NCBI RefSeq assembly: GCF_001722335.1
Contig: NZ_MIHA01000034.1
Span: 1-39,678, forward strand
Length of the DNA: 39,678 nt
Origin: Mycolicibacterium flavescens
GTDB lineage: Bacteria > Actinomycetota > Actinomycetes > Mycobacteriales > Mycobacteriaceae
Direction of reading: 5' to 3'
Each line of letters opens with the position of its first letter. The stretch's first letter is position 1. Positions 35,318-36,776 of the stretch are shown piece after piece. The position numbers were made by a program, and so were the translations under genes. The notes beneath the pieces are model-generated. The model was given only the letters and a program-made list of their open reading frames with translations, was not told the DNA's origin and searched no databases.

Positions 35318-36019
35318 TCAGCTGCTCAGCGACAGTCCAGCCGCGACTGCGAAGCCCAGTACCGCCGCCAGTCCTGCTTGGCGACCGGCCTTTTCGGTCG
35401 CTTCGGGAATCATCGACGTGACCAGCATGACAAGTAACGCGCCGGCAGCGAATCCATCGATCCCACCCCGAAGTTGGCTTCCTGCGACCTCTTGGAACTG
35501 GTAACCGGCAACGGTGGCGGCCACGCACAACACCGCAACTCCGGCCCAGCCGGCGATGATGTGGGTGCCCCGTCGGCCGTTGGCCTTGAGGTCGCTCGCC
35601 GACCCGACCGCTTCGGGCAGATTCGACACGAAAATCGCGACCAGCAGCGAGATGCTGACCACCCCACCGCCGGCGATGCCGATGCCGAGCACCGCCTGTT
35701 CCGGAATCCCGTCGAGCAGCGCACCCAGCGCCAGTGGCAACCCGGCCCGACCGTTTCGCCCGCCGACGCGGACGACACCGAAGTCGGCAAGGAAGAACGC
35801 CAGACCGCCGACCGCCAAACCGACCGCGACGGGAAGCGCGCCGCCGATCCGAAAGCCCTCCTCGGCCAATTCGAAAGAAATGCTGGCCACCAGCGCGCCG
35901 GCACCGAAACCCAGCACCCACCCGACGAACCGCGGTTTCCAGGGGCGGACGACACCCGCGATCGCACCTACGACCAGTGAACACGCCGCAACGGCTCCCC
36001 ACAGCAACGCGCTCAGCAC
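35318..36019 (-). CDS. ZIP-family-like metal transporter
   Basis: 233 residues, about seven to eight hydrophobic helices and few charged residues. The ZIP-type Pro-Glu motifs are present but lack the usual histidines: SFELAEEGF (48-56), LDGIPEQAVLG (102-112), VSNLPEAVGSAS (131-142) and MIPEATEK (203-210). In zinc transporters the corresponding motifs are HNxPEG and HExPE. It may carry another cation or be a divergent branch. It is 9 nt after the DUF4383 gene and 87 nt before narK on the same strand. Confidence 0.72.
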   Translation of the reverse strand: MLSALLWGAVAACSLVVGAIAGVVRPWKPRFVGWVLGFGAGALVASISFELAEEGFRIGGALPVAVGLAVGGLAFFLADFGVVRVGGRNGRAGLPLALGALLDGIPEQAVLGIGIAGGGVVSISLLVAIFVSNLPEAVGSASDLKANGRRGTHIIAGWAGVAVLCVAATVAGYQFQEVAGSQLRGGIDGFAAGALLVMLVTSMIPEATEKAGRQAGLAAVLGFAVAAGLSLSS

Positions 36020-36028
36020 GGCGCAAGC

Positions 36029-36448
36029 TTAGGCGCGAACCCTTCTGCGGCGCTTGGTCGGATCGTGCTGTCCGGCCAGCGTCAAACCCAGGATGATCAT
36101 GACGACACCCAGCGCGAACGTCAGCCACCCCCACGGTCGCGCGGTGGCCAGGCCGTAGATCCATACCGCGAGGTACAGAACACCGCTGCCGAGGAAGTAG
36201 GCGCGGGCCAACGCGTAGGTGCGCGCCATCACCAACCCCAGCGCGCCGATCACCAGGTTGACGATGTTGTGCGCGATCGACACCACGAACAGCCCGAACA
36301 GTCGAGCCTGGGACTGGTGGCTAAACCAACCCAGGTGGTCGAGGTCGGAGGTGACTCCGGGGATGAACCCGAGCACCCCGACGAGCAGCAGGACGGTGCC
36401 GACGATCAGCGCGGCGCCCTGCACCGCCATGTAGCGGGGCTTTGCCAT
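36029..36448 (-). CDS. DUF4383 four-helix membrane protein
   Basis: 139 residues with four hydrophobic segments and a basic C-terminus (KRRRRVRA). The segments LFGLFVVSIAHNIVNLVIGALG and LTFALGVVMIILGLTLAG, and the GWFSHQSQARLFGLF loop, fit the DUF4383 family, common in actinobacteria and of unknown role. Of two adjacent ATG codons, the second (36448) is chosen because GGAGGT is then 5 nt away rather than 2. It is 9 nt upstream of the ZIP-like gene and probably co-transcribed with it. Confidence 0.8.
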   Translation of the reverse strand: MAKPRYMAVQGAALIVGTVLLLVGVLGFIPGVTSDLDHLGWFSHQSQARLFGLFVVSIAHNIVNLVIGALGLVMARTYALARAYFLGSGVLYLAVWIYGLATARPWGWLTFALGVVMIILGLTLAGQHDPTKRRRRVRA

Positions 36449-36475
36449 CATCCACCTCCGTCGTTATTGACGGAT

Positions 36476-36505
36476 CGGTTACCCCGCGCGTCGGCGGGTT
36501 AACCG
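36476..36505. repeat. Inverted repeat upstream of the DUF4383 gene
   Basis: CGGTTACCCC pairs with GGGTTAACCG across a 10-nt loop (one mismatch). It lies 28 nt upstream of the chosen DUF4383 start and could be an operator or part of a terminator for the preceding small gene. Confidence 0.4.
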
Positions 36506-36527: not shown

Positions 36528-36565
36528 CTCCCTCGCAGGTGGGCGCGGTGCCACCCGCGAGGGAG
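36528..36565. terminator. Strong hairpin after the cysteine-rich gene
   Basis: CTCCCTCGC (36528-36536) pairs with GCGAGGGAG (36557-36565), and GGTGG pairs with CCACC inside it, with one A-C mismatch and an 8-nt loop: a 14-bp stem. It lies 14 nt past the stop of the small gene on the minus strand. No T-tract follows, as is common for mycobacterial terminators. Confidence 0.55.
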
Positions 36566-36579
36566 AGGAACAAACCCGG

Positions 36580-36687
36580 CTATTTGCGGACGTTGCAGTT
36601 GGGTCGGTTCCCGCAGTGATGACCGGATTCGCACACGTTGCAGCGGCAGCTACAACCGCTGGGTGCCTTGACTGCAGAGATACGCAT
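36580..36687 (-). CDS. 35-residue cysteine-rich, metallothionein-like peptide
   Basis: A small gene of 36 codons: MRISAVKAPSG followed by CSCRCNVCESGHHC and a tail ending NCNVRK. Cysteines are C12, C14, C16, C19, C25 and C31, with adjacent H23 and H24, so 8 of the last 24 residues are potential metal ligands. AAAGGAG lies 10 nt before the ATG, a TATATT -10 candidate lies further upstream, and a strong hairpin follows the stop, so all parts of an independent gene are present. The pattern suits binding of Cu(I) or Zn(II), but it does not resemble the known mycobacterial MymT beyond its cysteine content. I do not recognise a named family. Confidence 0.72.
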   Translation of the reverse strand: MRISAVKAPSGCSCRCNVCESGHHCGNRPNCNVRK

Positions 36688-36743
36688 CGCTGTTCAACTC
36701 CTTTGTTGACGCGCCGCGGCGGGCGCATAGTGGACGCATCTCG

Positions 36744-36749
36744 AATATA
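36744..36749 (-). promoter_or_regulatory. Candidate -10 box of the cysteine-rich gene
   Basis: TATATT on the minus strand fits TANNNT and is unusually AT-rich for this region. It lies in the gap after the prpE stop, 56 nt before the ATG. Confidence 0.4.
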
Positions 36750-36776
36750 TGCCGATCCGTTTGGGGTTTGGGCCGG

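Follow-up and report, generated by a model that had tools for sequence, protein, structure and literature searches.

Several described systems bear comparison with a very short, cysteine-rich gene product from a mycobacterium. The metallothionein SmtA is longer and has more cysteines than the 35-residue peptide considered here, and MymT is longer and has another cysteine pattern; the CCHC zinc knuckle has the spacing CX2CX4HX4C. We take PF02069 to be the Pfam accession of the SmtA/BmtA prokaryotic metallothioneins. MymT is presented in PMC7387436 as a copper metallothionein of Mycobacterium tuberculosis, and PMC4353254 places smtA with smtB in the smt locus. Cysteine-rich uORFs have been described in mycobacteria (PMC4633059, PMC9094748), and Canestrari et al. 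2020, as cited in PMC9094748, describe polycysteine short ORFs that serve as cysteine-responsive attenuators.

The stretch analysed here, "the window", is 39,678 nucleotides of Mycolicibacterium flavescens DNA, in which a sequence-only reading had proposed an unlabelled cysteine-rich gene of 35 residues (Table 1). The product is MRISAVKAPSGCSCRCNVCESGHHCGNRPNCNVRK, with cysteines at positions 12, 14, 16, 19, 25 and 31 (CxCxCxxCx5Cx5C) and a histidine pair at H23-H24, just as had been read. A search of the window finds the motif a single time, and none of 100 shuffles contains it. The proposed ribosome-binding site is also present, and sites of the GGAG or AGGTG type precede the starts in relatives, where the choice of start was partly steered by such sites. 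The proposed -10 candidate exists as a TATATT, but a consensus scan of the window found no sigma-70 promoter for the gene. The hairpin said to follow the stop is likewise strong, GC-rich and terminator-like, but it lacks a T-run and went unlisted in the terminator scan of the window, which gave one weaker site (0.8 expected). An Rfam scan of the window returned 0 families.

Table 1. Features of the peptide gene and its neighbours in the window.
Feature	Position	Strand	Details
Cys/His-rich mini-protein gene (CxCxCxxCx4HCx5C)	36580..36687	minus (36687..36580)	35-codon ORF plus TAG
Ribosome-binding site AAAGGAG	36698..36704	minus (36704-36698)	10 nt before ATG
-10-like TATATT	36749-36744	minus	
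Promoter-region block GGATCGGCATATATTCG	36742..36758	minus	contains TATATT
Hairpin TCCCTCGCGGGTGGCACCGCGCCCACCTGCGAGGGA	36529..36564	minus	36 nt, 3' of the peptide stop, -28.6 kcal/mol
SigF-type promoter candidate GTTA-N15-GGGTA	36480..36503	minus	before DUF4383
DUF4383 protein gene	36029..36451	minus	next gene downstream of the peptide; PF14325, E 2e-29
ZIP-like metal transporter gene	35318..36019	minus	Pfam Zip 22.8 bits, below the cut-off of 35.1

A degenerate-pattern scan of one genome per species, covering 84,980 species, returned 81 loci. The pattern fixed the six cysteines, H24 and G26, and it is strict, missing the CHNIGSGC form. On reading the frames, we assigned 61 loci to mycobacteria (L081 on the basis of its peptide) and six to the Acidobacteriota, and left out 14 that by eye look like chance, one of these being acidobacterial (L025). 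M. hodleri is one environmental species in which the gene is found. The core consensus of the mycobacterial members is C-x-C-x-C-N-A-C-D-G-G-H-H-C-G-N-P-P-N-C. Profile searches scored part of each genome's candidates, and their counts are lower bounds. Profile A1 matched at least 122 of 396 genomes at E ≤ 0.001 in the genus of L042's genome. For the wider profile A2, 297 genomes from a single mycobacterial genus gave matches in at least 117 at E ≤ 0.01 (at least 113 at E ≤ 0.001), a count in which two of the weakest matches have an internal stop and some genomes contribute paralogues only. Matches were found in at least 20 of 401 genomes drawn from the family, in at least 3 of 246 drawn from the phylum (all three also among the genus draws), and in at least 3 of 199 drawn from the acidobacterial phylum, one of which is the centre genome and one L115, without H24 and C25. 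A tblastn search against plasmids and phages gave partial matches at E 1-7 and nothing more. Locus counts below refer to 79 mycobacterial loci, the window included; the paralogue L098 and the acidobacterial loci are left out, and the set contains one duplicate, L113 being taken as the same contig as L027.

The peptide evolves as a protein and is the product of a conserved, real gene. The six cysteines, G22 and H24 are invariant in all 30 rows of the A2 alignment, in which no cysteines are adjacent and most rows have a basic C-terminal tail (R/K). For the selection estimate we used 57 distinct cores from the 79 loci, each 20 codons long and all with the same spacing; forms with other spacings lie outside this set. 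All 57 of these main-form cores have G22, N27, P29 and N30, four residues that the search pattern left free. The pN/pS ratio is 0.17 in frame, or 0.24 once the eight codons fixed by the search pattern are removed; reading the cores in the two alternative frames gives 2.8 and 1.6. Variation falls 12612 times on third positions, compared with 3047 and 3532 for the others. The family combines free synonymous sites with conserved non-cysteine residues. The cysteine pattern and the frame are thus retained in relatives by the species scan, the profiles and pN/pS, so that the gene survives the check that the sequence-only reading had itself proposed, and the excess of synonymous-site change it suggested looking for is there. 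The very short length would suit a chance ORF, but conservation across genomes, the shuffles, the species scan and pN/pS rule this out, and we give it practically no weight.

None of 30 members matches any Pfam family at E ≤ 0.1, and none of the 30 matches NCBIfam at the same threshold; together with the species scan, the genus-wide profile matches and pN/pS, this bears out the earlier description of a real gene without a label. No PDB chain was found at E ≤ 1 by profile, with one match at E 5 by sequence, and an AlphaFold2 model (pLDDT 53, no confident fold) decides nothing. We found no description of the family in the open-licence PMC literature. A protein search of limited sensitivity, with a longer relative as lead, yielded 26 relatives from 278 scored candidates; none has a Pfam domain, one is named 'calcium-binding protein', and the rest are 'hypothetical' or have no usable name.

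The Pfam profile test places the peptide outside the known prokaryotic metallothionein family. Like SmtA/BmtA it is small and cysteine-rich with histidine, and an ArsR/SmtB-type sensor gene lies near it in 19 of 79 loci, as smtB lies near smtA; unlike them, it has 35 residues, six cysteines and no Pfam or PDB match. It shares with MymT the character of a short cysteine-rich mycobacterial protein, MymT being the longer of the two and different in its cysteine pattern. The metallothionein-like traits present are the small size, six cysteines among 35 residues, and conserved CxC and histidine.

We consider it about an even call that the gene encodes a translated, probably cytosolic mini-protein acting like a small metallothionein and buffering or storing a thiophilic metal. 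The conserved Cys6His core, along with the lack of a visible signal peptide (as far as the short N-terminus allows it to be read), makes metal coordination the best account, and the ZIP transporter, NmtR-like regulator and heavy-metal ATPase near part of the family agree with it. We infer translation in the cell, this location and metal binding, together with the stoichiometry, the choice of metal and the buffering role that follow: a single compact cluster would be built from conserved residues, all six cysteines plus one histidine (H24) or more, and would take up either several Cu(I) or some two divalent ions, most likely Zn but possibly Ni, Co or Cd; in this way the peptide would buffer or store the metal. 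The peptide appears to come from a separate short transcript, not shared with the ZIP or the nitrate unit; the gene has a promoter block to itself and, in the window, is followed by a 3' hairpin.

A close rival, which we rate as somewhat unlikely in itself, is a structural zinc mini-finger that would serve as a regulator or adaptor by binding DNA, RNA or a protein partner, the metal being structural and not cargo. In this geometry C16-x2-C19-x4-H24 ... C31 would resemble a CCHC knuckle, with which the peptide shares the C-x2-C-x4-H core, and the other ligands would form a second site. Some non-cysteine residues are conserved beyond what a simple metal sink would require; this speaks for a folded finger or a partner and keeps the mini-finger reading alive, and the basic tail also suits it. 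Against it, the last cysteine follows at x6 or x7 (CX2CX4HX6C or X7) and not at the x4 of the knuckle, there are three extra cysteines, and the family, as noted, matches no Pfam or NCBIfam family and no PDB chain.

To place the metallothionein-like reading in context, we considered the identities of nearby genes. Downstream of the peptide gene in the window, on the same strand, are the DUF4383 gene, the ZIP-like gene, a NarK-type transporter gene and the nar genes, an order that agrees with the sequence-only reading; an acetate/propionate-CoA ligase gene lies upstream. By tblastn, with re-fetched loci shorter than 3.2 kb left out of synteny, the neighbours include an AcsA-like gene in 52 of 79 loci, a convergent Ppx/GppA gene in 50, DUF4383 in 31, ZIP in 21 and a nar gene in 10, all of these being lower bounds, with at least 2.5 kb of downstream sequence in 56 of the 79. 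Gene clusters place an NmtR-like regulator in 19 of 79 loci and a heavy-metal P-type ATPase in 18, with a piece in L023. For one NmtR-like representative the best PDB match is NmtR, 2lkp (E 3e-46); NmtR is a Ni/Co sensor. Weak ATPase matches by tblastn in L096, L104, L106 and L107 were left out (26-35% identical, far upstream and read as Kdp-type), and the labels enolase, FtsB-like and Kdp-like are readings of the sequence. The recurring gene order suggests one locus running from AcsA-like to Ppx, with varied genes inserted around the peptide, and the metal-linked loci, which are mutually related, look like variants of one locus.

The metal-gene setting proposed from the window holds for part of the family: 26 of the 79 loci have ZIP, an NmtR-like gene or both, but neither was seen in the other 53, the usual neighbours being AcsA-like and convergent Ppx genes, and this speaks against the metallothionein-like reading. 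ZIP was found in 30 of 297 genomes (E ≤ 1e-40), and the peptide in 22 of these 30 versus 95 of the 267 others (Fisher p 8e-5, kinship ignored). In all 22 co-occurrences the two genes lie on one contig in the same orientation, the peptide gene first and ZIP after a gap of 96-1164 nt. This adjacency, along with the NmtR-like and ATPase neighbours, would fit a dedicated partner of a ZIP or efflux system that delivers metal to the transporter, takes metal from it or tunes it. We regard such a partnership as unlikely, ZIP having been seen in 21 of 79 loci and in 30 of 297 genomes as against 117 with the peptide. Eight of the 30 ZIP genomes are without the peptide, which counts against both the partner and the metallothionein-like readings; a scan for cysteine-rich frames in nine ZIP loci from these eight genomes found no hidden copy. 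Some ZIP loci (L032, L041, L065, L068 and L080) then have a prolipoprotein diacylglyceryl transferase paralogue and a radical SAM protein with an HMPTM-type zinc ribbon.

The synteny with the nar cluster in the window had also suggested a link to nitrate or NO, under which the peptide would be linked to nitrate respiration as an Fe-S or NO sensor or buffer. The ten loci with a nar gene give this some footing as a lower bound, but no nar gene was seen in the other 69, in a count limited by short loci; we consider the reading very unlikely and reject the link as a family trait.

The region upstream of the peptide gene contains a recurring block, which in its full form in many relatives is GAACTATTGTGA-N6-CATATGTTGAT and which by eye is a direct repeat, TATTGTGA-N8-TATGTTGA (L003, L008, L017, L100 and others). 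The form found in the window's group, GGC[AC]TATATTCG, occurs in 11 of 79 loci, the form CTAT[TCG]GTGA in 46, and some form in 64. A 27-nt version, a query derived from the peptide gene's own promoters, was found with at most three mismatches once in each of six out of seven genomes, each time right before the peptide gene, and at 0 sites in the seventh. The 16-nt core with three mismatches gave 24 matches in four genomes versus 8 with a reversed control; with at most two, only the four sites ahead of the peptide were found. Such a once-per-genome block would suit a dedicated or self-acting regulator, as in the mini-finger reading. Between the ATPase and NmtR-like genes stands a repeat that differs from the block and, by eye, does not recur ahead of the peptide gene, which gives no indication of control by NmtR. 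Folding of the 5' leaders gave a mean z of -0.78 over 62 distinct leaders, with 21 below -1.5 and the window at 0.6, and many of the strongest-folding leaders are in ZIP/NmtR-type loci; on these scores we rejected a general RNA element in the leader.

The genes downstream appear to be transcribed differently. The SigF consensus is given in PMC5401905 as GTTT-N15-17-GGGTA. A GTTW-N14-17-GGGTA sequence precedes 26 of 40 DUF4383 ORFs, versus 0.25% of mononucleotide shuffles, and is found within 200 nt of none of 84 peptide genes. The DUF4383 gene, and perhaps the ZIP gene behind it, look like members of the SigF stress regulon, and since the SigF-type promoter precedes DUF4383 but not the peptide, the peptide gene and DUF4383/ZIP look like separate transcription units. 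The promoter is seen before DUF4383 in the window and in L006, L009, L019, L022, L100 and others.

This arrangement bears on the possibility that the peptide is a leader, that is, a cysteine-responsive attenuator acting in cis on the next gene. It is a cysteine-rich mycobacterial short ORF, cysteine-rich uORFs are among those described in mycobacteria in PMC4633059 and PMC9094748, and in most loci, the window included, it formally lies on the same strand directly upstream of the next gene. In 23 of 79 loci, however, the next gene is convergent, at a distance of 75-184 nt. The consecutive cysteine codons of the attenuators are not found in the family; the peptide has spaced cysteines, a Shine-Dalgarno site, free synonymous sites and conserved non-cysteine residues. 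Given this protein-level selection, the convergent neighbours and the SigF-type promoter before DUF4383, we think a leader peptide most improbable and reject it as the family role. The earlier suggestion of a regulator of the ZIP gene, if taken as acting in cis, is likewise not supported as a role for the family: most of the loci lack ZIP, the next gene is convergent in the 23 just mentioned, and DUF4383/ZIP apparently use a SigF-type promoter of their own.

Returning to the metallothionein-like reading, the family extends beyond the main form. Among 20 profile matches fetched without the search pattern, 19 keep the six cysteines and H24, the exception being L115, and L114 has a different spacing ahead of the last cysteine; all nine of a further pattern-free set keep them as well. 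G22 is kept by some, not all, of these matches. Their tails include GHHCHNIGSGC and HHCHNRPNC in the first set, among others, and CHNMSSGC, CHNVAAGC and RANNC in the second. The weak profile matches, of which the weakest A2 matches were fetched in part, thus appear mostly not to be noise. Two matches per genome occur in 6 of 297 genomes. L182, L183, L184, L187, L188, L189 and L098 are paralogous cysteine-rich mini-proteins with the same core and unrelated N-termini, and the neighbours differ among five of the seven. In four of the six acidobacterial loci (L039, L040, L048 and L076), the peptide gene adjoins a convergent, conserved ORF of 70-85 residues (VYAMNTLLIxKGxYTQxEF-like), two members of which gave no Pfam match above the cut-off.

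It is quite possible, if a little short of an even prospect, that these genes make up an undescribed micro-metallothionein family, mostly of 28-39 residues with a Cys6His core, serving the ordinary metal economy of about two-fifths of the species within one mycobacterial genus; the family would include sister forms in the Acidobacteriota and several paralogous subfamilies, and many members would be driven by a gene-specific upstream element. At 35 residues the peptide would be, to our knowledge, among the smallest bacterial metallothioneins, if it is one, and it is a test object that is easy to synthesise. If the metal role is true, many mycobacteria carry a metal buffer that has no annotated name, and a part would be missing from models of how mycobacteria handle zinc, nickel or copper.
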